Shown here piece after piece: positions 1,326-59,397 of a stretch of 64,000 nucleotides of DNA (its first letter is position 1; every line of letters begins with the position of its first letter). The stretch is from contig OZ017760.1 in assembly GCA_963969365.1 (NCBI GenBank), forward strand, positions 1,302,001 through 1,366,000. The letters run 5' to 3'. Made by a program: the position numbers and the translations under genes. The notes under the pieces are model-generated. The model made no database searches, had not been told where the DNA came from, and saw nothing but the letters and a program-made list of their open reading frames with translations. Source of the DNA: Asterochloris sp. CNOR1 (taxonomy: Eukaryota > Chlorophyta > Trebouxiophyceae > Trebouxiales > Trebouxiaceae).

Positions 1326-4300
1326 TCACTCAGCAATGGCCTGCTTGCCAGGCTCCTCTTTAGGAACCACCTCCATGTGCTCCTCGCGCACCACTCCAGC
1401 TTTGGAGCTGCCGGCACTGCTGCTGGCCTGCAAGAGACACTGGGCATCAGGGGATGCTGGCAGCAGAGGCAGGAAAGGCAGTCAGCAGTAGTACCATGTT
1501 GGCCGGCCTCACACTGCAGCAGTAGCACAGGACCGGCATCCACCCCTACTCAGGCAGATGCGAGCAGCTCTGACAGACCCCAAAGAGTGGAGATGGAGGT
1601 CAGGATGTTCTCCAGGCTGACCAGGGGCAGAACCCAGCACACAACTATGAACTCTTGAAATCAAGCACTTTTGAGCTCTGCCATGGTAAGTTTGTTGCTG
1701 GGTGGGCTGATGAACAGGCACACACATCTGGGACAGTAATCGTGCAGCTGGATACTCACTGCCAGAAGGGCAGCCTGGGTTGCACTGTGTGAGTCATTTG
1801 CAGCTGGAGCTGATGCTGCCAGCCTGGGCCAGCCAGGCTAGGAAGGTGCTGTTGGCACCCCTGCCCAATCTGTGATGTGCTGCAGACTTCAGGCACTGTG
1901 CCTGCCCACCACAGCCACAGTCCAAACCCCAGATGTCACCTTCTTGCTGGAGGTGGCCTCTGTGACCTAGACCATTTTGTACCTCAGGGCCAAAGTCCGT
2001 GCAAAATTGCATCATACAGCAGGGCACATCTCATCACAAAGGCTGCCAACACCCCAGCAGTAGAACCCTCAGGTTGCTACCTGCTTGCTGGAAGAGGTGG
2101 CCTTGGTGACCTTGCCAGCCCCCTTCTCAGGCGTCTTGGGGCCCTCAGCCGCAGTAGCTGCCACCTGCATGCCCATCTGATTGCTTGGCACATGTGCACC
2201 CCACCTACCACAAGTGCTTATGCAATTTGCACTCACAGGAAGGGGCAAGTCTTTGACCTGCACTGGCACAGACGCTGACAGCACCAGAAGTGTCGAATGA
2301 GACGACAGACAGCAGGTTCTGAGACCGTCTGACCTCGTTACGCAGCTGCTCAATCTCGCGCTCCTCCAGGTTCACCTGCACAACATCAGGGTCAGCATCA
2401 CTTTCACAGGGGGTCTGGATGGCTGAGGCTTCTGTGCACTCTTTGCAGACCGCCCAGCAGACAGCGAGTCAAGTTCACTGCACCCATGCCAACTCTTTCA
2501 TTTGCACATGCCACAGATCTGCTGAAGCACGCAGCTGCACGTGTTGCGCAGTGCTCACTTCCCCAGAGGCTGGGTACTTTCAAATGAACTTGACAGCTGT
2601 CACAACTAGAAAGGGATGCTGCTCACCTTAGCACGCAGCTGCAAGATGCGCTGCGAAGTGAAGGTGGAGTTCTGGTCCCCCATGGCCTTGGCAGCCTCCC
2701 AGATCTTGCGCTCATTGACCTCAGCACTGGCGGCGGCCTCAATGGCCTCACGCATGCCTGCAAGATGCAGCAGGCAGCAACTGTGATAATGCAGCTAAAT
2801 GCACTATGATAGCACAGTGCGAAAGCTCGCCAAGCATGCATGATAGCCAGCAGCACACCAGCCCTGACAGATGCCTGGCAATGACAGTGTCATCTAAGGC
2901 CCAAAGGAAACCGATGGAAGGGCAGCTGCAGCGCCAGCCTGGAACATAGCTGCCTCACACCTGGACAATAAGTGATGCAAACCCCGGATGACTGATAACA
3001 ATGCAGCTGCAAAGACCCACCTGCCTCCAGCTGGGTGGCCTCAACCTCGGCTGTGCGGGCATCCTCTCCCAGCAGCTTGGCCTTTTGGGTCAGGTTCAGG
3101 TGACGCTCCCGGGCAGCGGCCACGCGCACCTGTCAGGAACACTTGGGACACTTGAGATCTGTTTGCCCACAGCAGCAGATTGTTAAGAGGCAGACAGGGG
3201 ACGGGAAGCGCTTACAAGCAGCTGCCAATATGTACACCTGTCGACCAGAAGTGCGCGTCAAGGTCTTGTGCGCAACAACTGGTTGGTGGGCAGACCCTTC
3301 AGGTGCCACTTTCAAGCAGCTGCTGCGCACACCTGACAGCCTGTGGCCAACTTGGTGTGATACAATTCAAGCACCATCCTTGCATGATACGCTGCAGCTG
3401 TCTGCCGGACTCACTGATAGCTTGACAGAAACTTGACAGCGGGCTGTGCCAGGCACAGTACTGCTGCCGTTCCCACACAATGTGTGACCACCACCGCCGA
3501 GCTTTGCTGCCTGTATCCTTATGAAAAAGCCTCACCTTGGCAGCCTCCAGCTCTGTAGTGCGGCGCTGCACCTCCTCACGGGCAGTATGCAGCTCCCTGT
3601 ACGCATTAGGTAGATACTGCTCATGTCTTGTCTCAGTGCAACAGTTGGAGATGTGCTGTGCATCATCACAATGACAGGCTATTGCAAGAGCTGCAGGGCA
3701 AGCTAGGCATTGCTGCAAGCCCCTTCTCTGTCCTCAGTAGAGTTATACAGAACACTCTGCCTGTGCAGCACTTAACTGCCTCCCAGCATGTGCCGCCGCC
3801 ATGCCACTGCAGGTGCAGGAGAAGCACCAGGCCTCCGAGATATAGACAGGAACAAAGATGCGATTCTGTGGCCAGGTCCTTGGCCTGCAGCTCCTCACGC
3901 TGAGCAGCTCAATTGCATGACAATCGCCCAAATCGTCAGTCATGTTTGACCTGCTCACAGGCCCCTCCTACACAGCTTTCCAGAATGGTGGGCATCCCAC
4001 ATGATGCTTTCGGTTGAGCCTAACCCAAGAGGGTTCATGACCCTCTCAGCAAGTCCCCTTAGCTCGCAGCACCCCAACAAAACATCGAGCTGCCAGGCAA
4101 CACCCACAACCCCCTTCCACCCCCCACCCCCCACCCCTCCCCGGGTACAGCACCCAAACATTGCTGCCCCTGTTTGCCTGCTTAACCCCCCCAGTACAGC
4201 ATCTAAAACCAGTTGCCCCTGTTCACCTGCTCAGGGGCTCAGCCTGCTCAGTGAGGTCCTTGGTCCTCTCTTTAGCCTGCTGCAGCTCGTGCTCACGCTC

Positions 4301-7300
4301 GTGCTGCACCGCCTTGGCCTGCTCCAACCCCTGACGGGCCTCCTCAATCTGGCGCTCCAGGGACTCCACCCTGCAGTGTGTCCAAGATTGTCCAGATTTG
4401 CCTAAGCAGCATTGTGGGTTCAGAGATGCCTAGGATGGCATGTTATGATGGCCTGCAGACCACTGCTCAAGCAATGCAGCATTGGTAAGATCCTCATTGT
4501 AAAGCCCTATGCTAGCCTCCCGCCTGCAGCAGCATAGACTCCAGAAAGAAGGATATTGATGAAACGGCAAAAATCAATAAGCTGTCCCCTGCAGCAGCAT
4601 GGGGGTTGCATGTTAGCACCTTGATGACATTGGGACATTTTCAGGCTAAAACCTCAATGTGGGACACCCTGCTACATTTGCCCACATCAAAGCAGCCCAG
4701 AAACGCTTGAATGGACGCGCTGCATGCCGGCCACACATGGTTGATCTCCTCACAAAACCTGGTCCTTGTCTGCAGCTGTAGCATCATCTGAAACTGGGGA
4801 ACAGCCCAGCAAAAGCGAGATGTTGTCTGACTTGGTGCTGCCTGGCAAGTCTCAAGACGCTCACCTCTTCCTGAGGACCTTGACCTTGTCTGCAGCCTCA
4901 TTCGCAGCCTTCATCAGTTCAATGCGTGCCTGCTCAGCTGCCGTGACCTCAGCCCTGCAGCAGCCAAGCCATCAAAGATATGTCAGACAATGCCAATGAG
5001 ACAGAATCAGGGTACTGCTGCTCAGGCAAGCACGCCTGAGGTGCTGCTCCCAGCAACTTAGGAGTATGATGCCCTGCTTGCAGCAGGCCGCTCCCAGCAT
5101 GGTTAGAGGGAGCTGACCAAGGCCAGAGCAAGAAGCACGACAGAGTACTGACTCTTTTGCACCTCTGAGTTAGCGGCCGTGCATATGGCGGCTGATCCCC
5201 AAGCTTTCACACCTGCCTTTCCAGGTACTCTGAACTTTTTTTGGGCCTCATTGACACTCAGCTAGCCACTAATATAGCCACTGGCAATGCCCTGGCCTCA
5301 CAGGCCTGCCCCCCATGGACTGTCACCCTGTAGAGGCCCTTGTGACCACAAAAGAGGATTGAAGGAAACAGGCATCTGAACAGTCTGACACCCTAAGCCA
5401 CCTCCTCTGCGCCAGGTGGCACAATTTGACACAGTTGTCTCAGAGTGGCAGCCTCAGCAGACAGCCCTACACTGACCTGGCAACCTCCAGTGCCCTGGCA
5501 ACCTCCTCTGCTGCATGCTCAGCCTCCCGCAGCTCACGCCGCCGCTCCTCCACCAGAGCATCAGCCTCAATCAGGCGGTGCTGCAGGCAGGGTATACTGG
5601 ATCTGTTGTGGTGAAATCGCAGATGGGCGTCAGCCAGAAATGTGCTACTCCTCCACCAGAGCGTCAGTCTCAGTACTGCAATGAGGCAGCCAGCAGCCAC
5701 TGAAGAAGGCTAAGCTGGCCTGTGGACTGGCCCCGCGCTGCCAGCCTCAATCAGGTGCTTCATGCACAGAACCTGAAGTCGCCACGCCAGGCGGTTGCAG
5801 ATACACTGCACATGGGCCAATTGGTCTCATCCAGGCAGACGTGCAGGCCGTTCGCATCAGATGGGAGCTTCAACACGTCAAAGATCCTGGCCTGCAGCTA
5901 AGGAATATATCACAGCTCTCAAGTTTTGTTAGTCCGTCTGCCACCCACCGTCAGCTTCACAATGTTGCCCTGCTCGCTGCAAAGCAGCCACTGTTCAGGT
6001 GATGCTGGAGTCTGCGCAGCCTACCAACCACGACAGGCAGGTGCCAGACCAACCACAGACCACGACCAGGCCACACAGCCCATCCTGACTAAAGCACAAT
6101 GACTGAAGCACAGCCTATTGTCAGTCCTCACTGTCAGCTGTTCGATGTCGCCCTGCTTGCCGGCCGAGATCTCGGACGCCTTGTTGGCGCGGTGCTCCTC
6201 CTCTGCCTGCAGCTGGGTGACGCTCTGCAGGCCCCTGCAGAACGGAGCACATGCCTTGAGCCAGGCATTATGCTGCATCCACAAAGCTGCTGCATAAGGG
6301 TGCTGATGCTTGGCCTGCAGCCCCCTGCAGGGAAAAGGCCATGCGTCAGGCACTGAGCCGAATGAGTACCAGAACGCTGCATGAGGGGTTTGCTGTTCAG
6401 CCAGCAGCTGGTGACAGCCTGCCGGCCCCCTGTAGACCAGCACAAGAGCAAGCAGTCAGACACTGAGAGGTGTACTGACAAAGGCAGCAGGTGGTGCACA
6501 ATGAGGAGGCAGATAACCTTATCATGCAGTGGCATGAGAGACACCTCTCCCACAGGCTGAGGCACCAGCTGCCATTCAGGGACTGATCAGGCAGGGGCAG
6601 CAGCACACCGTGAGCCAGGTAGCAATGCGCCCACAGAGTTTATTTACATGCTGGATGGCCATGCCTGCTACGCCTGCTGCTTTGGCTGGTGCTCCAGGCA
6701 AGCACACAGGGATATTTCATGCCCTCAGCAGTCAGCCAAGACTACGGCAGCAATGCACAGCACAAGACGTCACCAATCACCCTGCAGGCAGACTATGAGA
6801 TCAGGGATGACGGCATCCCCGCTCTTCAAAGGCAATGCTGCCACCTTGATGAGCCCCTTCTCAACACAGCAGAACCATTACACAGTGCATGGAGCCAGGC
6901 AGCACCCTCACTTGACTGCGGCGTCATGGGCGGCCTGCAGCTCGCTCAGCTTCTGCTCATGCTCCTTCAGCTCAGCTGCCAGGCGCTGCAGCTCCTTTGT
7001 CTTGCGCTGAGCCTCCTGCTGGGCCTGCTTGGCGCCCCTGCAGGGTGAAAACGTCAACACTTGCCAGTGCTGGCCGGAACAGCCAGATGAATGATGTGTT
7101 CAGGGGCGTTACTATGCAATGCCAACTCCTGCTGGTCCTGCTTGGCGCCCATGCAGCATGGAAGAAAACGATGTTGCAGCACTCTGAAGCAAATAAGGGC
7201 CATGAAAATCCCCCTCACGTGTGTCAGGCCGAACTCAGCAGTGATATGGCCAACATTGTCTGACAGGGGTGGCAACGTGGTGGTAAAGTGTTCTGGTCAT

Positions 7301-9109
7301 GTTGCTATGGGCACTGAACCTCCTGCTTGGACCCCTGCCAGTCCAGCACCAGAGATCTCGGAGATCAGCCCAGGAGCAGGTCGATTCGGCAACAGTGAGT
7401 GATTGCGTCTGTTGCTTGCCTGGGGCCCAGCAAGCCTGAATGCACCATGCACTCACACCGAATGCACACACTTACTGCTCCTTCTCAGCAAGAGTCTTGC
7501 GCAGCTCGCCCTCACGCTCCCGCGCTGTAGCTGCAGCCGCCGCCACCTGTTGCAGCATAGCGGCCTCCTCTTTTGCCTCCTGGGCATCGGCTTGCAGCTG
7601 CAGGCAGGCAGAGAATCATCCATAAGCCTGTACAACAGTGACTACTGCAACAAGGCTCTCTCCGCACAATAATTATAAGGCCCTCTTTGCTCCTGTCATC
7701 CAAGCCTCTGCGTGCAACTGCAAAATAAACAATGAAACACATACGAGATGTGTGGGCTGGACTGTACCAGTCAGCATGTGCGCCTGCCCTTTGCACTTCT
7801 GGGCATCTGCTGGAAGGCAGCCTGAGCAACACAGAAGGGGGAGGCAGCAAGCTCAGCCCAGCTGAAGACATTTTCCGCGCACTGCATGCAGGACTCCAGT
7901 GCTGCCAGCATGCCTGCTGTCATTGCAGAGTATCACTCAGCCTGCAGATCTCACACCTGCAGCTTGACACAGTCCCTCACATGCGTGTGGTGGCCCCTGC
8001 TCTGAAGTGATCGTGCTTCAGCCTGCAACATGTCCCCACCTGCGCCTGCCTCCTGTGGGCGGGGCAGCTCTTCTGCATGCAGAAACTGCCTTGTGCACAC
8101 TGGGCACTGCCCAACGCTGCTGTCTTTCCCCACACATCACACTACCTTGGCAGCCTGCCTCCTGGCCTTTGCAGCCCTCTCCTCCAGCTCGCAGGCAGTG
8201 CTCAGCAGCTGCTCGGCCGTGCAAGCTTTCATGTGGGCCAGCACAGCTTCGTCGCCCGCTTGCTTGACATGCTGCTTGGTCTCAGTCCACTTGCGGGCCA
8301 CACCCTGCAGCACAGGCAGCAAGCTGGTGTCAATTGTGCATGGATCTGGATGCATGCTAGAATCCTGCATGGGCTCCGTCCACTGCTGGGCCCCGGCCCT
8401 GCAGCCCAGGGTGTCAGCTGACGACTTCATGCCCAAGCACTGCGCAAGGCTACAGCCCATGCAGATGCACTGGCATGGGCACATTTATGACAGACTGCCT
8501 TGCTCAGCTCCTGCGCAGGCGCTTGGAGTGTGCATGCTGGCACATTTGTGACAGACTGCCTTGGTCAGCTCCTGCGCAGGCGCTTGGAGCGTGCATGCTG
8601 ACACACAGTCAGCCAGCAGCTTTTGACTGTCCTGACACATGCGCTGCATGGCAATGCCATGGGTTCTGGCTGGGCCGCCTGCTATGACCCAGAACATGCA
8701 GCACAGGAGTGGTGGAGGTGCAGGTGTCAGATGAGGTGGGGCGGCCAGGCGGCACACGCCCAGAAGCTGCTGGGTGTGGCAGTGTATGTGGGGTGGCACA
8801 CCCTCAAAGACATCGCCGGGGCCATCCCAGACTAAATAGCTCCAGGCATGTTGTGCCGATAGGCAGCTCCTTACAGGCGCCCCGTGGCAGCTGACTTGCC
8901 ACCAGCCTATAAAAGTATGTGCATGTGCACACCTGCCAGGCAGCTGGGATGAGAGGGTCGATGTCAAAGAACAGCAGCTGTTGAGGCACCAGCAGGCCCA
9001 CAACAATTCCAATGACAAGTCCCAGAATGACGGCCTCAGCCTCTCTGGAGTGCAGCAGTGTGAGGTGCAGAGAGGCGAACTGCACTCTTGGAAGCCTGGG
9101 TGGCAGCAT
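1326..9109 (-). CDS. Membrane-anchored coiled-coil protein, many exons
   Basis: A multi-exon minus-strand gene whose exons nearly all encode charged, Glu/Lys/Arg/Ala-rich alpha-helix typical of a long coiled coil. The clearest exons are near 8150-8307, 7474-7600, 6911-7036, 6133-6237, 5470-5606, 4865-4958, 4225-4373, 3535-3605, 3017-3127, 2632-2757, 2334-2382 and 2086-2169. The last exon (1326-1427) ends in a hydrophilic tail, EEPGKQAIAE, then TGA. The exon near 8932-9070 is the most N-terminal one I find. It holds one strong hydrophobic segment (VILGLVIGIVVGLLV) suited to a membrane anchor, so the coil would project to one side of a membrane. I do not recognise a family. The start is uncertain: an ATG at 9109 is in frame, but an upstream exon is possible. 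Several introns carry decayed copies of exon ends (see findings). Partner and location are unknown. Confidence 0.65.
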
Positions 9110-9866: not shown

Positions 9867-11061
9867 TGCTCACGGCAACTGCTTCACAGCCAAATAAACA
9901 GCTCTCAAGAGAAAGTGGCAAGCACCCCTCACCAGGACCACCTCGAGGGCCTCGTGTGTGACATAGTCTCACTTCGCATTGTGGCTTCCCCTCTTTTCGG
10001 GTCGCAGTTCGATCGCTTGCCATGACTTGCATCACCTTGGCGTGTGAAGTGAGCGCTTGCTGTTCCCCAACACTGCCATGTAGCTCTGTGGCATCTACCT
10101 CAATGTGTCCACTTCAGCTAACTCTGGAAGCATCGACCAGTGAGCTGTTGTCAGTTGACATTCAGCCATGCGCACCTCACATCAAGGCATTATTGATGCC
10201 CTCACAGGCAGCATTGCTTACTGCTGGCAAGGACTGTCTGTGGTTTGTCGAGAAGCTGTGTGGCCAGATGTTCATAAGGAAGCATGGAAAAGTCTTTCAA
10301 CCTTCACTGCAGAGCTGAGTGGTGAGCTTGACAAGTTGCACTTAGGCTGCAGTGTCCTGATGTGCCCAAACACTGGTTATTTCACGTGCAATTGCATTGC
10401 CGCCGCTGTGGGCTTCACCCATCTGGCCTGCTTCTCGCCAGCTTTGCTGCAATGCCACCATAACAATGCCACAAGCAGCCACAGGCTGCAGACACCACAC
10501 CTTGCCTGGTCACCTGCAAGTCAGCTTGAAAAGTGGACCTGAGCAGTAGAGTGCTTGGGTCAGCCATGGGAGCAACTAGCACACCCATTTGTGCATATGT
10601 TGCAGACCGTGCAACCCATGCCAGCTCACCTTCACACAGACGCAGCCTCTGGCAGTTGGCAGGCACGGCTGCTGCCCACTCCCTTTGGCAGTGAAGGTGT
10701 CTTGCAGCTCTTTTCAATGTGAAAATGGGCATCTGCAGGCTACTGGCATTGCCAGCTTCCAGTACCCCCATCAAGTGCAACGCTGCATGCTTCAGCATCA
10801 TATGATGCTTCAGCGGATAAGCCGTGAAATCTGTCCAGAGTGACAACGTTGCCTGCCTATCGTCAGGATACTGCACCAAAGTTGGCGTGCCAGCAGCCTT
10901 GCATAGGTGGTGGAGTCGCCCCAGCATCGCCAGCAAGCTGCATCTACACACGCCAGGGGGCCGCTGCCCGGTGCCTGCGGAAGCTTGCTGACCCCAGAGA
11001 AGCTGGCGTCAGTAACGGCCTGGCAGTACTGCGTACCCAGTGTAATCTGCCAGCTCCACAC
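9867..11061. other. Unassigned stretch with open frames on both strands
   Basis: About 1.2 kb without a gene I can support. A plus frame near 10168-10345 and a minus frame near 10620-10735 look mildly coding-like and have plausible splice sites. They match nothing I know and could not be joined in phase to flanking exons. Some may be downstream exons of the minus-strand unit at 11062-11470. Confidence 0.3.
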
Positions 11062-11470
11062 CTGCTGCAGTGGCTGCTGCCCAGACATCTTGCATCCCTG
11101 CTTCAGCAGAGCCAGCAGCTCATCAATAGTATCCTCCACGCTACAACCGCTGTCTGTCTGTGAACAGGCTCCAGACCTGCTGCGCTGGCTGCTGCCTGGA
11201 TGATCTGCATCCCTGCTTGCCAGCAGAGCCATGAGGCCATCATTCATCCTCAACGCTGCATGCTGGCGTCTGTCTGTGGTCAGACACAGCCGCCCACAGG
11301 GTCAAGAGCTGGCCTGGCAGGCCACTGCACGCAGGGCGTGCTTTTGTGTGAGCTGAGCCCTACCCCTTCAGCCGCGCTGGCAATATTCGCCATTGTCTCG
11401 AGAGCGGCTGTCACTGCCTTGGTCTGCATGCCAGGGTGCTTCCCCACCACTGCTGCCAGCCTTATGCACT
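11062..11470 (-). CDS. Two exons of an unknown helical protein (partial)
   Basis: Two minus-strand exons join in phase. Exon A (11364-11470) follows a CTGCAG acceptor and encodes a helical run containing AVVGKHPGMQTKAVTAALE, ending at a GTAGGG donor. Exon B (11062-11157) encodes VEDTIDELLALLKQGCKMSG and ends at a GTGTGG donor. The intron between them carries a near-full decayed copy of exon B (about 11170-11285). The gene would start near 11750, just upstream of and divergent from the methyltransferase. I could not fix its start or its downstream exons, and I do not recognise the family. Confidence 0.4.
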
Positions 11471-33000: not shown

Positions 33001-33617
33001 CGGCAAGCTCAGTCCTCTCTGAGGGGGCTGTCCTCTTTCTGCAGTATTCCTACGGGGATCCTTATTCAGCAGTGTGCTCCCGAGGTGACCTGGCCAAGCA
33101 CCCAGTCCCCAAAGGCTGCCTAGACAGCAAGATCACAAACTACCAGCTGGCGCTGAAGCGTGTCAGTGAGGCTGTGGTGGGCCCAACAGCACAGGGCCAC
33201 CTCCCTCCCTTTTCCTGGCAAGGTGAGCACGTGACAACACCAGCGCCCTGCTGACACTAGTCCACATCGAGCCTGCCCACTGCCAATGCTGCACACAGCC
33301 AAGAGGGTCTGGATTGCACTTCCTTCTGCTGCACTGAGTCAGCTCGGCTGTGGTGGGCCCAACAGCAGGGTCAAGGCAACCCTGTTTGCTTTTGTTGGGA
33401 AGGCCAGCTTGCACAAGCTATGTGATTGCTATGCTTACTGATCACTGCTGACATGCTGCACTGGAAATTCGCTGAAATGGCAGCAAAACCTTTGTGCACC
33501 GCAGGAGGCATGTTTGATGATGTTCTGCATGAAGGTCAAGTGCAGAGCTTTGACTTTGACTGGGAGAGGCAGTCCCCAGAGTTAAGATGGAGCCGGGTTG
33601 AAATAGCAGCGGCATGA
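27087..33617 (+). CDS. Phospholipase B-like protein (PLBD family)
   Basis: Fourteen exons (27087-27222, 27312-27462, 27824-27895, 28570-28781, 29347-29466, 29943-30080, 30659-30774, 31282-31389, 31572-31604, 31946-32068, 32332-32409, 32546-32662, 33045-33222, 33505-33617) join in phase to 564 aa, the usual length for this family. An N-terminal hydrophobic stretch ending VVTAQ looks like a signal peptide. Family marks follow: FAAGFLEAWMTA; SGRCSALITVSG with the likely nucleophile Cys near residue 223; LLVGHSTWDSYSQ; ANWLAHTGEEW; NSGTYNNQYM; LLWVAEQIPGLV; MRYNNYETD; AVCSRGDL; and a C-terminal DFDWE. PLBD proteins are lysosomal or secreted N-terminal-nucleophile hydrolases that mature by self-cleavage just before the Cys; they act on lipids or other amides. 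The intron after 31389 begins GC rather than GT, and family alignment supports that junction. Confidence 0.92.
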
Positions 33618-37664: not shown

Positions 37665-37731
37665 GTCAGAACAGACTCCAACCTGGATGGAGTCTGTTCC
37701 ACACTGCCATCTCTGGCAAATCTGGAGCTTC

Positions 37732-46576: not shown

Positions 46577-49371
46577 ATGCTCTCCCAGGAGGCTTCCCTC
46601 CGGGATGCTCATGTCCATCCATTGGCTCAACGTGCATCCGTGTGGTCAGAGCACGGTCATCTTCAGCATACGCGCCAGCAAAGGGCAATGCTGCAGCCGA
46701 GTTGCAGGCAATTTCTCCAGAGCAGCAGAAGGGCACGCAGGCAGCTGGCTAGGGCTGTGAGGCACACTGCTGGTGAAACTACGGAGGCTTTGCACCCTCT
46801 ACTTAATTCAATCCTTGGAGAAATCCTGTCCAAGTATTGGGGTGAGCACTCTGATATGCATACACAATGCTTTCTAAAGCTGCTGGCTCTCAACATCACA
46901 TGTGTTGCGTACAGACAGGACACCAACTGCAGTGACATGCATGGGGCTCCTGCAAGCCATTCTGAATGGCACACCTGTTCACTTCGACCACCTAGCATTC
47001 AGGACTTTTGGGGTGAGTCTGAACACATCAACATTGTGCAGCTGCAGATGGACAGCAGGGTGTTCCTCTGGCCGAGGCAGTCTTGCCCAACCTCCCAGCG
47101 TCATTGTCACTGACATTGAGCTTAGCTGTGCATCCAGTTCATCCTTGCCTGCAGCAAGTCTGCCCTGAGTGCGTACCTAATAAGCGCTTTGTGGTGGCCC
47201 TACAGGTTCCAGGCCTTGGCATTGACAGCATTGCCTCAGTGTTTATGGACTTTGGGTACAAACAGCAGCCTGATGAGCTCAGCTTCGCAGAGAAAAAGCT
47301 GAGGGCACGTTGGTTTGCGCCACCCAACTATGAGACAAACCTGCCACGCCTGTTCGTCTCAGAGCTGCAGGTAGGCTGCCCTCAGTATGCACGCTGTGCC
47401 TCACCAACCATTGCTATGCGATCATGGGTGCAGGGCCTGCCAGGCCACTGGGGTGCATTTTACAACCCCTTCTGGCAGGCTTGTTGCAAGGACGACAGCA
47501 ATCCTCGCTGCAACTGCATGCCTTTACTTTGCTTACACCTTGCAGTGCAGAGATCACTCTTTGGCTACATCTGCATATGGAACATTGAGGAGCTGGTGTG
47601 ACCTTGCTGCTGTGCAGAGCCAGTGTCGTGCTCTCACCGTCATCAACTGGCACTGCAAGTGGAACAACTGTCCCAGCAGGCCCCAGTCAGCAATCTGCCA
47701 AAGCTGTTGTGGCCGCAGGTCGCGCTGCTGGCTGGCTTACATGTCCTGCAGTGCAGAGCTCACACAGCCTGCTAAGAATACCTATGGGCTGCAGCAGGTT
47801 GAGCAGCTGTCTCAGCAGGCACAGGCCTGCTGGAGTGCAGAGTTCAGCGTCTCATGAACTAGTGCTGCAGGTGGAGCTTCTGTCTCAGGAGGCACAGGAC
47901 ATCATCCGCCATTACACTGCCCAGGCTGGCCCTGTGGCTGGGCGGCAGGCCGCGCTGTGTGCTGCCACGGGCGTGCTGCCCTGGAATCATGCTTCTGTGG
48001 AACACTTTGAGCGCCTCGCCTCGGTGAGTCCCTTCCCCTGAGATTTTTGATTGTGCAGGTGACGGTCTCTTTGGAGGTGTTCCTCGCTCTTGCTGTGCAA
48101 ACCGGCGACTGGGCAGCATGTGGCGTCTTGAGACTCCTGACTGGACTGTTGCCAGTGCAGCATGTCTGAGCATGGCTACACCACCCCACAGCACAGCAGC
48201 ACTGCGAGCTTTTCTGCTGGTTCCGAGATGGCTGTCCAGTCCTTGACGGTGCGGTCAGGTGGTAGAGAGCCTGAGGTTGCAATGTTGGCTGCGCTGGCCT
48301 GTTACAGCTAAGTAGCTGTCTTACGCTGCAGGAGTCTGAGTATGCGGCCTGGGTGCTCTGCAATGGCTACAACCTGAATCACACAACAGTGGCCGTCCAC
48401 AAGCTGGAACGCATGAGGTGAATGCTGGCCAAGCCGATGTGTTGTGTGTTCAGGGAGCACAGCTCAAAGGCCTGGGCCGGTGCTCTTACCTGAAGACATG
48501 CAGGGCATGTCTGAAGCACATCATGGCTGCAGCAGCAGCCCTACACTGTTCTCAAGAGTTGGCTAGTCCATTGAAACAGCGCAATGTACTACACGTTGTG
48601 AAGGGGCCCAGGCTGAGCTGCAAGGTCCCGACCGCACAGCTGGCCACAAGCTGACAAGCTGTGTGGTAGTACCTGCAGTGGGGGCATTGACGAGCTAGTG
48701 CAGCAGCTTGACAAAAGGGGCATCCACATGAGCGATGCGGGCGGGATTGTGAAGGTGAAAGCTGCTGCCTCTGGGGTGTATTGGATCTGGATCCTTAAGA
48801 TGGGCTGGCAGGGCAATGGTGCCTGCTGCATGGCCGATCTGGCTTGGCATGGTGGCAGATGTTGCACAGCTCTATATTCGAGATGCTGATGAGTGAGTCG
48901 CTGCAGATATCGCCTGACGGACGCCTTCTGCAAAGTAGCACCGTGTCAGATCGGATCCCCTTTACGTTTGAGCGGGGTGATGAACATAATATCCCGGGTG
49001 CTTACTTGGAGTTTGCCGAGCGCAGAGTCCTGCCAGAATTCTCCCACCTTGAGGTGAAGCTGTGGCTGAGGCTGCTGCCCGCAAGCCTACTTAGAAGCTT
49101 GTTGATCTTGTGAAGTACCATGCTGAGGTCTCCTGATCCACTGCTAGCCGCTTGCCATGCAAAACGACGCCATTGCCTGCAGTTCTGCTTTATGTAGCAA
49201 TCACAGCAGCTCTGCTGTCTGCAGCCCAGAGACATCCTGGAGAAGCACAGAAGAGATGGCTTTGAGGCCGCAAACGCCAATCATATTTTTGACAGCACCA
49301 AGGCAGCATGGAACAGCCGTGAAGAGCAACCTCTTGCTGGGTATGGTCAGACGGAGGAGACAATGTTATAG
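46577..49371 (+). CDS. DUF1338 protein, 2-oxoadipate dioxygenase/decarboxylase-like
   Basis: Eight exons (46577-46841, 46915-47012, 47206-47370, 47871-48023, 48332-48417, 48679-48754, 48907-49053, 49225-49371) join in phase to 378 aa. The N-terminus (about 65 residues, Arg/Ser/Gln-rich) resembles an organelle transit peptide. Family marks follow: VHFDHLAFRTFG with the first likely metal ligand His114; FAEKKLRARWFAPP; LPRLFVSEL; AAWVLCNGYNLNHTTVAV with His244; AYLEFAERR with Glu316; and the end RRDGFEAANANHIFDST. In bacteria the HglS member of this family uses Fe(II), held by two His and one Glu, to turn 2-oxoadipate into 2-hydroxyglutarate in lysine breakdown, and plant relatives are known. 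The ligand assignment here is by analogy. A TGTAA word lies 35 bases after the stop. The gene begins only 139 bp after the zinc-finger stop codon. Confidence 0.9.
47659..47915 (+). repeat. Three tandem copies of a DUF1338 exon start
   Basis: Copies begin at about 47659, 47798 and 47871. Each reads as VEQLSQQA, VEQLSQQA or VELLSQEA and each follows a GCAA, GCAG or TGCAG acceptor-like end. Only the third continues as the real exon. The first two decay after about 35-45 bases. Confidence 0.75.
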
Positions 49372-50255
49372 GCCCAGCTCAGCTGAGCACACACTAGAAT
49401 GCAGTTGTAACTAGCAGCCACACCAAGAAGTTTGTTTGCCATCGTGTTCACAAGCTTGGGTCTGCAGTTCCCAGATGAAAGTGGTCAGTAACGCAGAGAG
49501 AACTACACAGAACTGGAAAACAAAGTGAACTTTTTCTTTCTTATCTTCTCTCATTCTTTCTGGTTGCCGCCCAGTTTGACATCATCACAACTGACTCTCC
49601 TTACTCCGGACACAGCACCTGCCATAAGGCTGGCTGTCAGATCCGTGATTTCTAAGTCACAGGTGACCAGCAGCAGATCTTGCCATGTTGCTGAAGGATG
49701 CAGGCAAGGCCTACTCTTCCCAGCAGGGAATTCCACAACCATCGTGGGCAGTGAATCGAAATTGTATGCGGAACATTTGCATGCCTGTAGGAGCCCAGAA
49801 GGCCCCAGTCAGCAGCTGTCATTGACCTTCAAGGCAAAGCGACCGATCTTGACTTGGCAGCGTCAACACTTGCTCTGAGGCTGTGGAGCAACTGCAGCTG
49901 AACCTGGCAGCATGAGCAGTTAGCCCAGTCGGATGCTGTGAGTTCCCTGTTGCCTGCCAGCAGTGGCTGCTGTCTACCAATCAAACAGGCACTGGCACTC
50001 ATTGCAGTGGCAGGGGCACCTCCTGCCTGCCAGACACTGCAAATGCGCAGAAGCACCAACCTGCCCTGACAGCTCTGGTGCCTGCACCAAGAGCATCTGC
50101 TGTTTCTGAGCAGGACTTTGCTTTCAATGCAGGGCTGCTGGCATGACTGAAGCTCAAGCCTGAGTGCTCCAGAGTTGCCGGCGCTAGGAGCCAGTCCAGT
50201 GGGAGTTGGCAGCGGTCTATCATCCTTCCAGGGTCCAGAGTCCAGCTGGGCCCTG
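49372..50255. other. Intergenic, DUF1338 3' flank and kinase 5' flank
   Basis: A TGTAA polyadenylation-like word lies at 49406-49410. A pyrimidine-rich run occurs near 49531-49562. No coding exon is supported. The stretch should contain the kinase promoter and 5' UTR. Confidence 0.4.
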
Positions 50256-53200
50256 ATGGCAGGCCAAGTCGAAATCATGGACCTGATCAACTCAGCCACC
50301 AACAGTGGGGATGCCAAGATGCGCCTGTTGGAGCGGCGCTTCACAGGGGAGCTACCGCCGGAGCTGCCCAGCCCCAGGAGCCTGACCTTTGAGGCGCACA
50401 ACATGGGCCACCGCAGGGCAAGTGCCAGGCCAGACCAGGCGGGTACCAAGGACAGGACATGTCTTGAAACAGCTGCATTATCAGGTGGTGGCCTAAATGC
50501 CGCCAATCAGGCTGCGGGCACAATATAGCGCAGCTGCAACAGCCAGACCTGTGAGACACACACCAAAACCACTGCATGATGAGATGCGACAGCGTCAAGT
50601 TGATGCTTTGGCCAGCCCTGCCTGTGACCAGAGCTTTTTGAGAAGTGAGCAGAGAACACGTGGGCTTGTGAGAGGTAGGTTGCTTCTCAATGACCTCACA
50701 AACATGAGACTGCCTGCCTACTGCCAAGCCCTAAATTTTGGGGCTCCATCCCTGCTGACAGATCCCTTGTGGAGCTCTTTCGTGCCACGCACAGTACTCA
50801 CCTCAACTTGCCTGCTACAGGCAGCATCTGCAGATAGGACTTCGCCAGAAGGCAGCTCCCGTGAATCTGTGCCCAGGCCGGCACAGGCAGGGGGATCTGT
50901 GTCCAGTCGGAAGCGCAAAGCTGACCAGCTGACCTCTGGAGGTGAGACTGCTGCTGCAGGGCAGAGTGCAGGGCAGAGCCCTTGATGGGGACAGAAGGCA
51001 CAGCTCCTTCTAAGAAGTGGCAGCATCCTTGCCAGACTATTGATGTCATAGCAGCCCATTGTGGCAGTGTATTGCATTCAACGACCATCAGCTGTGTGCA
51101 GACAATATAGCCTCCTCAGCATGGGGCAGCAGGCCTGAAGAGGAGAGAGGTTCATCACTGGCGCCACGTGCACCTGTCGCTTGGCTGAGCCCAGATGCAT
51201 CTTTGCTGGCTCAGGCCCACATGCATCTCCTGCTGCACAGGGCCACAGGCATGTATCGCAGGACCAAGCCCCCAAGTCACCTACTCCTGAGTGAATTGTC
51301 GTGCTCCTGCAGCCACGAGCCCCCTGCTTAGTGAGGGGCAGCAGTCGCTGGACCGGCACCTGCACAGGAGTGAGAACGCTGGCCCAAGCCCTGGTGCGGC
51401 CTGCCATGCCTGCTGGACGGGGTCCTCGCCGTGCTGAGCAGCCAGGGATTGAAGCCCTGATGCGCTGGCCTGCTCAAGCAGCACTGCGATTACAGAGGCT
51501 GATGAGGGACTTACTGTGCTACATGGCTGGGATCTCAAGACCTTCTGGCCACCAAGCAACATCCAGATGCCTCGCATCCCAGCTGCAGCATGCAGGCCCC
51601 ATGAAGAGCAGGGCTCAGCGGGTCGTCTCTGGTAGTCCTCTGCCTGCCTGCAGCACTGATCCACATCCATTGCTGCCTCATGCGGTCGCCGGGACCTTGC
51701 AGACAGCACCTTCCGGCCCACCTGCAGGCATGCTGAACCCCAGCAATGCGCAGCAATTGGTGGGCAGGAGCCTGCAGACCCTCTTCACTGCAGCACAAAG
51801 ACCCCCAGATGGCTCACCGTGCGCTCCAGTTGCTTGCAGGCATGCTGCACCCCAGCAACCAACAGAGGGGGGTGGGGAATAGGCAAACTCTGCCTCTGCA
51901 AAGCTGCAAAGACAGCCTGCAGACTGTCGAAATGGCGCAGCCCTGCCTGCACAAGCGTGCTGCACTCCAGCAACCACCGCCAAGGGGGAGCCCACACTCC
52001 CTCTGCAGGGGCTGCAGCAAGCGACGTCTCGCCCACAGCACCCGTTCTGCGTGCTCTGTTTGTTCACACTGCCTGGTTGCAGGCATGCTGCACTCCGGCA
52101 ACCACCAGCGCCAGGAAGCCCATGCCCCTGCCAGGGGCAAGGGGCAAAGCAGCCCCCTGCCCACCGCAGCACCAAACTCACTCTGCCAACGACTCACTTG
52201 ACGCCACCCATTCCTGAAGGTGTGCTGCACCCCAGCAACCACCAACGAGGGGCAGCCCACACGCCACCTCCAGGCGCCCGGAGCAAGCAGCGCTCGGGGC
52301 CGCGCAGCGCCAGCATCAACACATACTTCCCGAAGCTAGCCGTTGAGGGTGGGGCCCATGCCAGCCACAAGCCCCCGCCATGCCTCCTGGCTGTGGCAAG
52401 CTGTCAGACGGACGTGAGCCTGCAGGAGCAGCAGAGGGCGATGCAGGCAGCCAGGCAGGGCCTGCAGGCAGAGACTGACCAGCTCAGGTGTGCCCTCGTT
52501 GCAGTGTACGAGTGGTGCTTTGCCACTGCTGATAGAGGGCAGCATCTGTCTCCAGTTTCAGCAGTATAGGCTGCAGCTGAATGGCTGTGTGCTCTCTGCA
52601 TGATGACATCTGTCCAGTGGCACTTGCAAGGCCACGCTGGTATCTCAGACATGCTCACACCGCGCTGGACCTGCTGGGATTGCTGCCCTTTGTTGCGGCA
52701 AGTTGTGGTTGCTCCACATGTGCAGTGTCGGTGCAATGCTGCGGTGTGCCTGCCCGTGCAGGTCATCAGCCCCACACCTCACTATCATGCAGCCACAGAC
52801 CGACAAGCACCCTGCCTGACACCTGAACTCTTACCAAAGCAGCAAATGGACATGGCAGGGGGTGCGGAAATGGGTATCGTTGGTCCCAGTCACCAATAAA
52901 CAAAACATGATGCAGGGCAGCGCTGCAGAGCCAGGAGCGGGAGCTTGCAGAGGTACAGAAGGGGGCGCAGCAGCTGGAGGCTGCCAGGGTAGATGCCAGG
53001 CAGCAGCTGGACTCTGCCAGGTAGCCTCCATGCATCTTGCAGCTCTTTCCTCTCACATCAGCATCAGTCACATGTGCCGGCTTTGCTTACTGTGGGCTGC
53101 TGCAGCATCTGCTGCCTGCGTCTTCTTCTCTGCCCTCCTGCCTACAGCCAAGCAGGGCAGAGCATGTCATCTGCCAGACAGTGGCAGATTGCATGACGAC

Positions 53201-56200
53201 CCATTGAGCAGCTGCCTACCGGCTCTGCCGGCAGCACCTGTCCACGCAGTCGCAGAGCATGTGGCAAGCCACTTGGCAACATGGCGGGTGACTGCCTGCA
53301 GGAAGGCATCAGCCGTTGCCATGGCTCAGGCCAAGGCGTCTGCAGAGCACCTAGCAAGGCAGGCTGCAACAGCACAGCAGGAGCTATGTGCGCTGAGGTT
53401 GCAGCAGCAGTCGGGCCGGCTGGGGCAGTTGGCATTGTCAAGAGATGGGCCCCTAGGTCAGCGGTGCCTGTGCGTGCTATGTTGTGGTCGAGCAGCCCTC
53501 TGTCACATTTCCGCAGGCAGCTGACAGGGATGACTCCAGGATATGGAAGCTTGCTGCAGCTCCTGACGATTGACATGGACTTGAAGACTGTAAGGCCTCA
53601 CATCGGTGAGATGTGCCCACTAGCCTTGAACTTGCAGGTGCTGGTTGCCTCATTCAGTTGCATGAGTCTTGCCTATGCCCACGCTGAACAAAGGCAATAA
53701 ACTCTGCAATATGGTGTGCAGGCAGTCTTGGGCGATCGACAGTGCCTTTCATAGTCACAGTCCCACCTGTGCCCAGTGCATGATGCAGCAGAGGCATCCC
53801 ACCCACCGACGTTGGCCTCTGCAGGGGGGAGCAGAGAGTACTGGGAGGACGGCAGCGCCTTCCAGCACCTGCAGAGGAGGGCGGATGAGGTGGCTGCTGC
53901 CAGGAAGGCCATTGAGGCAGCCAGGCAGGCAAGCTTGAGGCGGGGCAGGCTCAACCCTGCCTATGTGGCGCAGTTCCTGTGTAGACAGGGCAGGGCTCAC
54001 AGGGTTGAGGAGTCGGCCCCCCAAGTGGGAGAAGCGTGAGACGTCATGATGTTTGCCAGCACATTCTGCAGCCAGCACTAGACTGCCGGCTGACATGTGG
54101 AGATACAGAGACTACTGCATGATGTAGACACATGTCAGCAGTGCTGTGCTTGCCAAGCCACAGGGGCTCAATCAGGTCTGTCTGCTGCTTTCCCTCTGCA
54201 CAAGGATCAGGTGCATCTGCTGCTGCAGGCTGCTGCTTGTTTCCTAAAGCAAAGTCACGGAGCCCTTGTGACACTGTGCCCAAATGTGTAGTATGTCGAG
54301 ACCTGCCTGCAGGCTGTGTCAGCGTGGCTGCCTGGTACCTTTCTGTCACGCGTTCTCTGCCTGCAGGCTGTCAGGCGGCGGCTGCCGCCTCCCGAGTCAG
54401 GGGTGCACAAGATCCCCCACCCTACATCTGCTTCCAAGAGAGGCAGGCCCAGCAGGGAGGATGCAGCTGTGGCGGAGCCCTCTGAGGGGCCACACATCAC
54501 CCCTGAGGACTATGTGGCCCAGGATGAGATCTTCAAGGTGGGGCCGGCAGCTAAGTGTGTTGGTGAGGGCCATCACTCTGCAACCTGATGTGCTGGCTGG
54601 CTGGAACCCAGACGGCTCGGGGCTTTGGTTTAGTTGAGCGGGCATGTGCGTGTGGGCCCATGGCTGAGAATAAGCTTTCAGCTGTTCTGCAGGCGCGATT
54701 GGCGGCCCTGAAGAGAGAGGAGGACCACATCAGCAAGGAGCATGAGCGCTTGGAGGCTGAGAAGCTGCGCCATGTCAAGTGAGTCAACCATGCCTTGTAA
54801 TGGATTCCTGCACTTAAGCAGGAGGGGAGACATGGGTGCAAGAGGCTGCGTCAGGACGTCCGTGTTGCGTGCTCTGCAGGGAATTTAAGCGACTGAGAGA
54901 TCAAGAGAGCAGCCGCTGGTGTGGGCAGCCTGTGCTGAGCGAGCGCTACTTGCTGATGAGCCTGCTAGGGAAGGGAGGGTTCAGTGAGGTGTTCAAGGTG
55001 GGCTTGGGCCATTTGAACCTTGTGGGGGTGTGCTGGAGGCTGACACACAAGCGACATTTGCTGATGAGCCTGCTGGGGAAGACAGGCTTCAGTGAGGTTG
55101 TCATGGTGCACAGTGGGCCATCTGTGGCTTGTTTGTGTTGTGCCAGAGGCTTCTTGATGTCATCTGCGGCAAAAGTTGAAAGGGGCTGAGGCTTAGAGCC
55201 GCCATCTGTGCAGTAGATGTCCGTCTTGTCGAGAGCAGACAGCTCAGATATTGAGGACGACCACATTTTTGACCATCAGTGCTGCAGGGTTACGACCTGC
55301 AAGACATGCAGGAGGTGGCTGTCAAGATGCATGGGCTCCACAGCAACTGGAGCGACAGCAAGAAGGCCAGCTACGTGAAGCATGCCGTGCGGGAGTCCCG
55401 GATCCATCAGCAGCTCAGGTGCCACTCGCTTGCGTTTGAGCTGCACGCAGAGGGCGGGATTCCAGCAGGTTGCCTGCATGTAGATTGTGGCGGCCAGGCA
55501 CTCAGTCATTACGCCGTGCAAGAGCCCTGAGACCCCACCAGCTGCTGAAAGTATCTCCTGGCACGTACTACATTGAACTGCCGGCTAGGGGGTGGGGTCC
55601 CAGGCAAATGCATGTGTGGCAGCTGTGACCGCCAGGTGCTTGGCCCGACTAATAGCAAGTGCATGGAAGCTAGACACTGCTAAGCTGAGGGCCAGTGCGG
55701 CAGCTCGGCTGAAGTACAGATGTGCAATGCTGTGCGATGTTCTAGTGGCTAGCTGACAGCTCTCTCAGCAGCAAGCTTTGTCACTGCATCATGTCCATGG
55801 CCTCCACCGTCAGGATGCTGGGAAGCACCTGATGTGTGTGGCTGAGTGCTGCAGTTGCGCACACAGGAGACCGCGCACCTGTTGTGGCCTTCATGCTGAG
55901 CGATGTTTGGATGGCGGTTGGCAACTCTGTTGGCTGCAGGCAGGGGCACTGCATGTCGGGACACTTCATTGGTGGCGTGCTGGGAGACACATGCTGTGAA
56001 TGGCTCACGTCCGCAGCCAGGCACACAGGAGTCACCTCAACTGCTGTGGCTCATCAAGACCCCTGGCACATGGCCTGTCAGGACCGCCCTCAGGCACACA
56101 GGAGTCATTCCACAATGTCATGCCTGTGCAGGCAGCCCCTCGCAGTGGCCTGCCTGGACAACGATGAGGCAGATAGCTGTCACCTCAGATGCTGTCGCAT

Positions 56201-59200
56201 GTGTCCTGAGGCACACCAGAGTCGCCTCAGTTCAGTGTAGCCTGCCTGGACCCTTGTGGAGGCACACAGGAGCAGCTCACCACCAAACACTGTGGCCTGT
56301 GCAGGCACCCCCGTGTGGTGGCCTGCCTGGACCTCATTGAGGTGGACAGCAACACCTTTGCCTCCATTCTGGAGCTGTGCCCAGGTGGGGACCTGGACAG
56401 TCACTTGCAGGAGCACCAGGTGAGAAAGCAGTCGCTGCAGTGCCGGATCTCATGAGAGCTAGTGCCTGTGTGGGAGCTAGTGCCTGTTGATGGGAGCCTG
56501 TTGATGGGAGCCAGCGCCTGTTGGTGGGTCAATCCTACACCTGTGGACTGGGAGAGACTTCACATAAAGCTGTGCGGTGTGAGACCACCGTAGGATCCAC
56601 CGGGCAGCATGCAAGTCATTGCTCTGTGTTTTGGGGTTAGGTTGAGTGGTTTCTCTGTTCAGCCACAGCATGAGCACTTGACACTGATGGAGATTAGCAC
56701 CCTCAGGCTGCTGCAATGCAAGGCTCCAGGGGCATGCCCGAGAAGGACCCCTATTGCCAGCCACGTCTCCGCTTCCATTGTGCATCGGCTTTGTTTCAGG
56801 GCCATGGTTGCTGTGCTTGACCTGCAGGTGCTGCCTGAAAAGGAGGCATGCGCAGCTGCTGACCATTTGCTTGCTGGCCTTGTGCCACCCAGACTGCTGC
56901 AATGTCCCAGCTTGATATGCTGCCTATCATAGTGGCCCATGCTACTTTGTTGATTTGTTCAATCTCAGCCACTTGCAGTGGTCCCGCTGCAGCTGGGTGC
57001 GGCAAGTGCTGCCTGCCACACCCTCGCTGGTTGTCCACGTGAGCTACTCTGCGGCAGTCTCCTTGTTCTGCCTGCAGGTGCTGCCTGAGAAGGAGGCTCG
57101 TGCCATTACCAGCCAGATTTTTGCTGGCTTGGCCTACCTCAACGAGCCTGGCAGGCGCTTCATCCACTATGACCTGAAGTGAGGAAGGCTGTTCTGGCTA
57201 CTGGCAGGGTGCAGGGCTGATGCACTCATGCTGCCCCATATGGACTGCCCGCTGCCCATGCAGCTCTCTAATGCTGCAGGGCGCCCTGAAGAGGTAGAAG
57301 GGCAGCAGTGCATGTACAGAAAGCACTGTCAGCTCTCAACAGCTGCCTGCAAGGCCTGGTGCAGCGACCACAGCCTGCATGAGGAGCGTGTCACTGCAGA
57401 CGCCCTGCTACTCAACGTCCAACCCTCCTTGTTCTGATGCAACCAGCTTCCTAACAGCTTGCACTCTGTGCAGGCCGGCCAACATACTGTTCAACGCATT
57501 TGGCGAGGTCAAGATTGCAGATTTTGGCCTGAGCAAGGTGGTGGAGGAGGGGCAGACGCGCGGCATGGAGCTGACCAGCCAGGGAGTGGGCACCTACTGG
57601 TGAGTCACTGATCACCTGCATTCTGACGCTGGCAAGCCTGGAAGTTGCCATCCAGATTAGGGTCAAAGCTTGATGGGTTCAAAGCTGTGGGGTCAAGGTA
57701 CCTACCGGTGGTGGCCCTTGCAAGTCTATGAACAAGTAACATGTGTATGGCCATTCTAATTGTACCGGCACGTCAATGTCAACATCGTTGCTGCAGGTAC
57801 CTGCCACCTGAGTGTTTTGAGATCGGAACTCGTCCGCCCACCATCTCAAATAAGGTGTGCAGGACCGTGGCAGTTGATGGACAATGCAGAGGCCCACCAT
57901 GCAGCTGGAGCTAAGGATGCTGCTATTGCTGCCACATGCTTGATGCCCACCAGCTGCAGTACTGGTGCAGGAATCCACCATAGGCTCACCAATCAGCTGG
58001 AGGCCAGAGAGTGCCGCTTTATCTTGCCAGCTGCATGATGCCTGTGGCTGCAGCAGGTTGATGCAAAAGTCTGCAGGCTAGATGGCTGCCCAGCAGTCCA
58101 CGTGCAAACTCATGCGTCTGTCATTGCCGCACGTCACAGCACTTTGCGGCATATGGTTGATGCCAGCCGTCGCGTATGGCCGCAGCATGGCAGTACTGCA
58201 AGGTACTGCAAGGGCATATCGAGCAATGCAGAGCTTGCCCAGACCGACCAAGTCCGCGCTCATTGCTGACAGCATCTGTGCACGTGCGCAAACAAGCTGC
58301 CTGAATAAACTGCAGCCTCATTGCCAGTTGCATGCCTGCCAGCCTGCAGGTGGATACCTGCTTGTTGCGAGCTGCTATGAAGCACACATGCATGCTGTGT
58401 GAGACAATCACTTGGTATCAAACAACCCTGCAGGTGGATGTGTGGTCGGTCGGAGTCATACTTTATCAGATGTTGTATGGCCGGCGCCCCTTTGGGGAGG
58501 GCGTCAGCCAGGAGATGCTCTTGCGGGACAGCGTCATGTTGAACGCCAACACCGTGACCTTCCCTAGCAAGCCTGCCGTTTCAGCTGAGGGCAAAGACTT
58601 CATCAACAGGCAGGCTGGGGCTGCATGGCTGCAGAGCTGCAGACAGAGGTGCTGCTCAGCTGCTGAGGTTGTGAAGGCTGTACGCCATCCCCCCCCTTGA
58701 GGCAGTCACGCCGTCTGTGTGCAGGGCCTAGACTCCTGAAGTAGGCAGGAGGCAGCATGGGTGCTCAGCAGCAATCCAATCTGCCCCCAGCTCAGGTGCC
58801 TGCCAGAAGTGTGCACTGTCTCATCAAGACTGGGAGGGCAATGTCTAATCTGCAGGCTAAAGGGCTGAGCAGAGGGGCCTGGGCTTGTGCATGCAAGCAT
58901 GCAAGTGTGCAGCCTGAGATGGCTTCTGCAGCAGCAAACAGGCGACGATGCCTGACAGAGCACCCTGAGGTAACAGGGCTTAGCGGTGATCAGAGAAGGT
59001 GCCCCGTGGTGTCTTTGGACTTGCTGCTGAGCTGCACCAGGGTGCAGCAGGAGTGGTCACAGCACCTCAAGCTGGATTGCGGAAAGGCGGTGCTTCTGCA
59101 CGTGTGAAACCACAGTGGTTCTGCTGGGCAAAGTGTACTGTTGCAGTCTATTGAAGCCATTTACTTGAAACAGGGCATCAGCAACTCAGGCGGCAGCCAT

Positions 59201-59397
59201 TCGTGGCAATGTTTCTGATCTACTGGATCTCAAGATGGCGATTGACCCTGTGCATTTGCTGCAGGTGCCTGGCACACAACCAGCAGGACAGGCTTGACGT
59301 GCTTGCAGCAGCCAGCCACCCCTATCTGCTGCTGAAGAGACCAGGCACCCCCCAGAGCAAACCAACAGCTCCAGTGAGCGGAACACATGCCTGCTGA
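50256..59397 (+). CDS. TLK: Tousled-like serine/threonine kinase
   Basis: Sixteen exons (50256-50417, 50821-50941, 52220-52487, 52916-53020, 53302-53456, 53825-54024, 54367-54537, 54693-54778, 54880-54997, 55288-55418, 56305-56419, 57078-57178, 57474-57599, 57797-57854, 58434-58609, 59265-59397) join in phase to 741 aa. The N-terminus has [12 protein letters not shown], then a nuclear-type [17 protein letters not shown] and CQTDVSLQ, all in the order seen in animal and plant TLKs. A coiled coil (about 180-420) mediates oligomerisation in the family. The kinase domain has the glycine loop [11 protein letters not shown], Lys475 in VAVKMHG, IHYDLKPANIL with Asp576, IADFGLSK with Asp594, [18 protein letters not shown], and [20 protein letters not shown]. 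All catalytic residues are present. TLKs phosphorylate the histone chaperone ASF1 and act in chromatin assembly during S phase. Two introns start with GC (after 50417 and 58609). Several introns carry decayed exon-edge copies. Confidence 0.95.
51728..52260 (+). repeat. Five-copy array of a kinase exon start inside its own upstream intron
   Basis: Units start at about 51728, 51840, 51956, 52083 and 52220, a spacing of 112-137 bp. Each begins with a form of GCATGCTGCACCCCAGCAAC and usually follows a GCAG end. Translated, they read as variants of [10 protein letters not shown]. The fifth unit is the genuine start of exon 3. The first four lie in the preceding intron and differ by substitutions and small indels. 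Stops or frame changes beyond each unit make use as exons unlikely, although each carries a possible acceptor. Confidence 0.85.
55856..56304 (+). repeat. Tandem repeats in the intron before a kinase exon
   Basis: The intron upstream of the exon at 56305 carries at least five copies of a unit containing GGCACACAGGAG or a close variant, with roughly 70-150 bp spacing. One longer copy (about 56132-56190) also includes GTGGCCTGCCTGGAC and GATGAGG, which match the real exon start ([10 protein letters not shown]). The array therefore covers both intron flank and exon edge. Confidence 0.7.

Follow-up and report, generated by a model that had tools for sequence, protein, structure and literature searches.

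Do the introns of the green alga Asterochloris sp. CNOR1 carry decayed copies of the edges of their own neighbouring exons, and if so, how did these copies arise? The question was raised by a 64-kb stretch of the genome (C15:1302001-1366000, contig OZ017760.1; the whole stretch is referred to here as the window). In an initial annotation, imperfect copies of exon edges, splice site included, had been described in introns of at least seven unrelated genes of the window, and local duplication across exon–intron junctions had been proposed as a standing way in which introns lengthen. The existence of exon-edge copies in introns is confirmed and is not limited to the window. The origin that best explains them, which we hold at slightly better than even chances, is a past wave of local duplications, in which copies that crossed a junction were made harmless by splicing and then decayed.

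Sequence sample, gene models and duplication scan

The window lies inside a 56.38-Mb assembly of 21 contigs and was analysed together with 24 ten-kb loci on 18 contigs, giving a total sample of 304 kb; this sample, which includes six loci added to an initial 244 kb, contains 433 predicted introns. G+C content was 0.56-0.61 across the sampled loci. For Asterochloris glomerata the published genome paper (PMC6652019) gives 56-62% G+C over 98% of nuclear DNA and nine introns per gene; a Trebouxia genome, at 48-50% G+C (PMC12712428), matches the assembly less well. Contig 21 carries a gene for the Rubisco large subunit, and the solved structures closest to its product are Rubisco large chains, such as 1gk8 from Chlamydomonas.

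A gene finder was self-trained on the 244 kb, a first setting having been dropped because tiny exons were far too numerous. The trained splice consensus was CAG/GTGAG at the donor and CTGCAG/G at the acceptor (the slash marks the junction), and the 244-kb gene models contained 343 introns (median 394 bp) and exons with a median of 121.5 bp. Of the seven places named in the initial annotation, the five that were scanned with Pfam were all backed by it [amine oxidase, bestrophin, RanBP zinc finger, HGLS (DUF1338) and protein kinase], as were a phospholipase B (E 7e-107) and GST-C. Neighbouring genes were fused by the finder: the whole window is covered by only two chains, and a stop occurs in the joined translation of the long one.

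Duplication events were located by a diagonal scan followed by gapped realignment, and those overlapping with a better-scoring alignment were removed, which reduced their number from 273 to 185. Stricter counts for odds ratios set aside events touching low-scoring exons. The set of introns with confident flanks comprised 279. For the edge test, each exon edge (at most 150 nt) was aligned with its own intron, and pieces of other introns, matched in length, served as the comparison.

Excess of exon-edge copies over chance

In the edge test the own intron gave p <= 0.01 for 25 of 259 exon edges on the donor side and 23 of 258 on the acceptor side (about 2.6 expected), and the reverse-complement control gave one and two, respectively. 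Scores of z > 4 were obtained for 20/259 and 17/258 adjacent pairs (donor and acceptor side), compared with 10/2900 and 10/2989 non-adjacent pairs from the same gene. At held-out loci, outside the training of the finder, p <= 0.01 was reached by seven of 68 edges on each side (reverse complement, 0 on the donor and 2 on the acceptor side), and in the window alone by 9/59 on the acceptor side and just 2/57 on the donor side. Ungapped segments with a score of at least 20 at lags of 15-600 numbered 184 in the real 244 kb and 0 in two local dinucleotide shuffles. Inverted local matches were scarce (15, against 3-8 in shuffles), direct ones numbering 80. A comparison of the first and second halves of introns gave p <= 0.05 in 24 of 236 cases and in nine for the reverse complement, a modest excess. 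Edge tests, held-out loci and shuffle controls all show that introns resemble their own adjacent exons beyond chance, and the observation of the initial annotation is confirmed; all seven of the places that it named contain an event, and the pattern extends past the window.

The 185 non-overlapping local direct duplications in the 304 kb were divided into 96 exon–intron, 47 intron–intron and 23 exon–exon events and 19 lying partly outside predicted genes, the last class being excluded from ratios. At least one exon–intron event was present in 21 of the 25 sampled sequences. Among the introns with confident flanks, 94/279 hold a recognisable local duplication and 69/279 an exon-edge copy. The junction is crossed on both sides in 84 of the 96 exon–intron events (acceptor 47, donor 32, both 5, none 12). 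That junction-spanning local duplication is widespread is supported. The aligned length of the exon–intron events (median 75.5) lies inside the range of about 40-130 bp given before, and introns with an exon-edge copy are indeed the longer ones (a median of 494 bp in 69 introns, compared with 355 bp in the 185 that have no event), size bias not being removed from this comparison. Junction specificity as a mechanism was not supported, intron-internal and exon–exon duplications occurring too.

At lags of at least 80, 87 exon–intron events were found against 20 intron–intron events. With intron-internal events as reference and three cuts of exon score, the odds ratios at these lags were 6.1-7.6 for junction-including and 2.2-2.6 for exon-internal copies; at lags of 40-80 the excess was small (1.4-2.3). 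BLAST self-comparison had suggested that duplications have a sharp lower size limit of about 90-100 bp, and hence perhaps a fixed unit length. Both ideas were dropped: the diagonal scan found many shorter lags, and the limit is taken to be an artefact of searching close to the main diagonal.

Copies in the window

The window holds 21 exon–intron events, four of which (14148, 29412, 40449 and 55727) involve exons with weak scores. The following copies were located (window coordinates; identity in per cent).

5648-5693, minus strand: acceptor-edge copy of coiled-coil-gene exon 5477-5580 (source 5545-5590; lag 103, 76% over 46 nt, ungapped)
5936-5977, minus strand: donor-edge copy of exon 6132-6234, coiled-coil gene (source 6120-6160; lag 183, 76%)
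7126-7163, minus strand: acceptor-edge copy of exon 6912-7037, coiled-coil gene (source 7013-7050; lag 113, 87% over 38 nt; flanks unrelated)
7772-7828, minus strand: acceptor-edge copy of exon 7476-7597, coiled-coil gene (source 7553-7610; lag 219, 83%)
10935-11283, no strand assigned: plain tandem of about 114 bp, the unit noted at 11062-11470 (10935-11167 and 11044-11283; 75% over 224 columns, or 77% over 119; intron-internal class, gene context unproved)
16040-16085, minus strand: acceptor-edge copy of amine-oxidase exon 15848-15983 (source 15947-15992; lag 93, 80%, ungapped; starts gccctgcag)
16657-16726, minus strand: acceptor-edge copy of exon 16447-16594, amine oxidase (source 16550-16623; lag 107, 80%)
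16858-17044, minus strand: donor-edge copy of exon 17116-17337, amine oxidase (source 16987-17170; lag 126, 72%)
17406-17456, minus strand: acceptor-edge copy of the same exon, 17116-17337 (source 17304-17354; lag 102, 80%, ungapped)
22193-22259, plus strand: acceptor-edge copy of bestrophin exon 22502-22636 (source 22493-22560; lag 300, 81%)
29525-29693, plus strand: 113-bp tandem duplication in the phospholipase B region, adjoining a weakly scored exon
31035-31083, plus strand: acceptor-edge copy of phospholipase B exon 31282-31338 (partner 31276; lag 241, 73%)
33328-33408, plus strand: donor-edge copy of phospholipase B exon 33045-33176 (partner 33152; lag 176, 74%)
41857-41910, plus strand: donor-edge copy of zinc-finger-gene exon 41467-41699 (partner 41651; lag 206, 81%)
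47531-47773, plus strand: acceptor-region copy of HGLS (DUF1338) exon 47871-48023 (partner 47735; lag 207, 70% over 229 columns)
50528-50576, plus strand: copy from exon 50232-50421 that does not cross a junction (partner 50366; lag 162, 71%)
51943-52174, plus strand: acceptor-edge copy or array of exon 52274-52487 (lag 137, 72%)
55027-55151, plus strand: donor-edge copy, head-to-tail, of kinase exon 54880-54997 (partner 54918; lag 108, 76% over 122 nt)
56812-56889, plus strand: acceptor-edge copy of kinase exon 57078-57178 (partner 57064; lag 250, 78%)

The bestrophin intron contains a further copy near 22393-22465, giving lags of 100, 200 and 300. Of the description given for the unit at 11062-11470, the duplication stands, and the exon edge is putative, as no proved exon adjoins it.

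State of the copies

The copies are dead as coding sequence. Mismatches are spread almost evenly over codon positions 1, 2 and 3 (23.7, 20.4 and 25.6%) and 190 of the 196 indel runs in the exon parts are not a multiple of three, from which it follows that the copies are not coding; a stop or an alignment gap is present in 53 of the 77 copies that could be tested for it. The same figures bear out decay by substitution and indel. At lags of at least 80 the exon part of a copy has a median of 45 nt and the exons concerned a median of 166 nt. The exon-to-copy spectrum (450 transitions, 532 transversions) contains no excess of the kind expected for C-to-T decay, and this route was rejected.

The spare splice sites survive in part. 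In fully aligned events the hexamer is identical to the true site in 24/48 acceptors and 8/33 donors; with end effects removed these counts become 12/28 and 7/28. Acceptor positions -5 to -2 (the TGCA core) match in 0.82-1.00 of the 28 events without end effects, compared with about 0.75 in the exon part. The final acceptor G (position -1) is kept less often, in 0.73 of 52 overall and in 0.82 of the 28.

Clearly tandem layouts are found in 26 of the 87 exon–intron events at lags of at least 80. When pairs at these lags with identity of at least 0.8 are considered, 24/27 leave at least 30 nt of the tandem unit unaligned, and among 26 of the 29 alignments with identity of at least 0.8, many acceptor copies start at the CTGCAG core and cover 20-60 nt of the exon, the flanks on either side being unrelated. 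For the 44 events with at least 30 unaligned nt, flank similarity exceeded the 95% level of the null in only 1/26 and 1/26 acceptor and 0/18 and 1/18 donor comparisons. Genome searches with three stretches (29442-29648, the kinase 55027 copy and the amine-oxidase 16657 copy) returned no close dispersed copy: 29442-29648 and the 16657 copy matched just their own place, and the 55027 copy matched itself and its exon. These searches were of low sensitivity: the one with 16657-16726 missed even its known exon partner, so that decayed dispersed relatives could go undetected.

A proposed old wave of local duplications

We propose that the genes of this alga underwent a past wave of local, mainly head-to-tail, duplications, each some 50-300 bp long. 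One that crossed a junction would be tolerated because the splice site beside the intact exon remains usable; by established splicing rules the protein need not change if the exon-proximal site is used, and a spare exon edge with its splice site would be left inside the intron, lengthening it. The intronic copy would then decay neutrally. The exon copy, being under selection, would serve as a fixed reference, whereas both members of an intron–intron pair would drift, so that exon–intron pairs would stay recognisable long after intron–intron pairs of the same age had been erased, and exon edges would come to look like a target. The over-representation of exon-internal copies at lags of at least 80 is as this anchoring effect predicts, and if the events are old the edge excess may largely reflect slower decay on the exon side.

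The age pattern was compared with simulations of random tandem duplication and neutral decay, which omit duplications that lie wholly within an exon or span two or more junctions. Under an old-wave setting of 0.2-0.4 substitutions per site with longer indels, the ratio of exon–intron to intron–intron events was 4.55 (observed, 4.35) and 93% of high-identity pairs looked non-tandem (observed, 89%). A guess, drawn from simulated detection rates, that duplications supplied a third or more of intron length was set aside, as it depends on the fitted ages.

Several points weigh against this explanation. None of nine old-wave settings fits every measure: the one that matches the ratio gives a median exon portion of 61 nt instead of 45 and an intron portion of 0 instead of 24, and puts the share of pairs with identity of at least 0.8 at 0.52 instead of 0.31, while those with an exon portion of at most 45 nt give ratios of 1.75, 10.5 and 19.5; the simulated ages were moreover picked to fit, without independent dating. 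Junction-including copies are favoured about threefold over exon-internal ones (ratio of odds ratios); a tandem origin would yield this, but 52 of the 87 exon–intron events at lags of at least 80 leave at least 30 nt of the tandem unit unaligned. The retention of the acceptor core above its surroundings is unpredicted by plain neutrality. Fainter hidden copies are not numerous, the estimated null fraction being 1.0 for donor and 0.85 for acceptor exon edges. Some of the one-base gaps in the indel count may be alignment noise and, because the finder fuses adjacent genes, some 'introns' may be intergenic.

Alternative explanations

The initial annotation had seen a standing process; in its plainest form, local tandem duplication with random breakpoints would keep lengthening introns at a constant rate. 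Intronic tandems of many sizes do occur, a few of them younger, such as that at 8478-8605 in the window (61 bp, 95% identical, the match being one base longer than the lag) and one at locus L008 (63 bp, 91%). In five constant-rate simulations, however, the exon–intron to intron–intron ratio was 0.82-1.0, against the 87:20 observed at lags of at least 80 (p about 1e-13), and 10-49% of high-identity pairs looked non-tandem, against 24/27. Identity above 90% is found in 2 of the 96 exon-edge copies, compared with 112 of 634 pairs in the first such simulation (p about 3e-6). This near-absence of young copies argues that the duplication is not a standing process. Several indel and age settings were simulated and none fitted; we regard a constant-rate origin as unlikely.

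A little less likely again is that selection retains the copies in the role of non-coding splice-site modules, such as decoys tuning the use of the true site. In a specific form, to which we attach a shade less weight, the retained module would be the acceptor core with 20-60 nt of exon, or an exon end with its donor, about 80-300 nt inside the intron, acting as a decoy or competitor while its surroundings turned over. The high odds ratios of junction-including copies over intron-internal ones favour selection, as do the many acceptor copies that begin at the CTGCAG core between unrelated flanks and the 82-100% match at positions -5 to -2. Donor sites have no such excess, though, with seven of 28 hexamers intact, and the codon-blind mismatches and frame-breaking indels match neutral decay. 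Core retention could come from the CpG-free nature of CTGCAG, from drift of the alignment onto common words of the CTGC type or from selection, and old-wave simulations yield similar boundaries without selection.

Error-prone templated insertion during break repair would make the copies imperfect and non-tandem from birth. The sharp edges and unrelated flanks at 80-93% identity, together with the small number of copies above 90%, are what this would produce. Templated insertion is expected to give inverted copies too, and the few inverted local matches reported above, set beside the direct ones, speak against it. It also leaves the junction preference unexplained, and divergence is slightly higher at third codon positions than at the other two, as ageing predicts. 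We consider this origin improbable.

That the copies function as alternative or mutually exclusive exons, as their splice sites and their position beside their own exon might suggest, is very improbable given the little codon-position bias, the frame-breaking indels, the stops and gaps and the small part of each exon that is covered. At locus L014 (4688-4872; lag 115, 89% over 70 nt), where both copies lie in predicted exons and each has a predicted intron–exon boundary, a really used duplicated exon edge is a candidate. A repeat array at locus L005 (8477-9316; lags 78-289) runs through a long exon and introns, with nine-base predicted exon repeats in register, and is possibly a growing coding array.

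Relation to known systems

In the potato RdRp gene a junction-crossing tandem duplication created an intron (Ma, Lan and Niu 2016, PMC4974935). There, as here, the segment duplicated within the gene runs from the 3' portion of an intron across the splice site into the 5' portion of the exon that follows; the potato case is a single, recent event with a new spliced intron, whereas the alga has many old, decayed copies in existing introns and no intron gain was shown. Exonize, applied to 20 eukaryotes, detects exon copies in introns, some of them degenerate. Partial, inter-boundary and intronic events there affect more genes than full duplications do, and fewer events are reported for lower eukaryotes (PMC12343006). 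The present copies resemble that class in that an intron contains sequence similar to an exon of its own gene, the reading frame being broken as in the degenerate subset. Exonize works at the protein level with coverage cut-offs, however, while these are short edge pieces detected at the DNA level in 69/279 introns, and the densities are not on equal terms.

End joining mediated by CST/Pol alpha-primase or theta makes small tandem duplications at breaks in mammalian cells, where such duplications are called the commonest insertions below 100 bp (PMC8355091). It is a plausible source of local direct duplications, although nearly all copies here are old. Mutually exclusive tandem exons (PMC9013439, PMC9741552) likewise bring similar sequences next to each other within a gene but are whole coding exons, in contrast to the broken fragments described here, in which the copy has no coding constraint; dual-specific splice sites in tandem-repeat genes are covered in PMC10809524.

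In the Asterochloris glomerata genome paper (PMC6652019) the term 'tandem dup' is absent from the main text and exon-edge copies are absent from section 6. A report of a comparable density of exon-edge copies was not found in the literature searched, most subscription papers being outside its reach. The earlier statement that no description on this scale was known therefore holds for the density in the literature searched and fails for the kind of event, which was already known from potato RdRp and Exonize; any novelty may lie in how dense the copies are in this alga and in their pattern of ages. If the old wave is true, a small algal genome would be a readable record of intron growth with exons as reference copies, and related lichen algae would allow measurement of how introns grow, what becomes of spare splice sites and when the wave took place. 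A caution also follows for other data, since seeming targeting of exon edges can stem from slower decay of one partner.

Other repeats in the window

The end of the window (59660-64000) contains a large inverted repeat whose arms lie at 59660-60226 and 63371-64000 (73% over 634). A near-palindrome occupies 60384-61197, and there is a direct repeat (60242-60386 and 62613-62757, 88%). Together these repeats have the look of an element of fold-back or transposon-like type that surrounds exons matching GST C-terminal domains.

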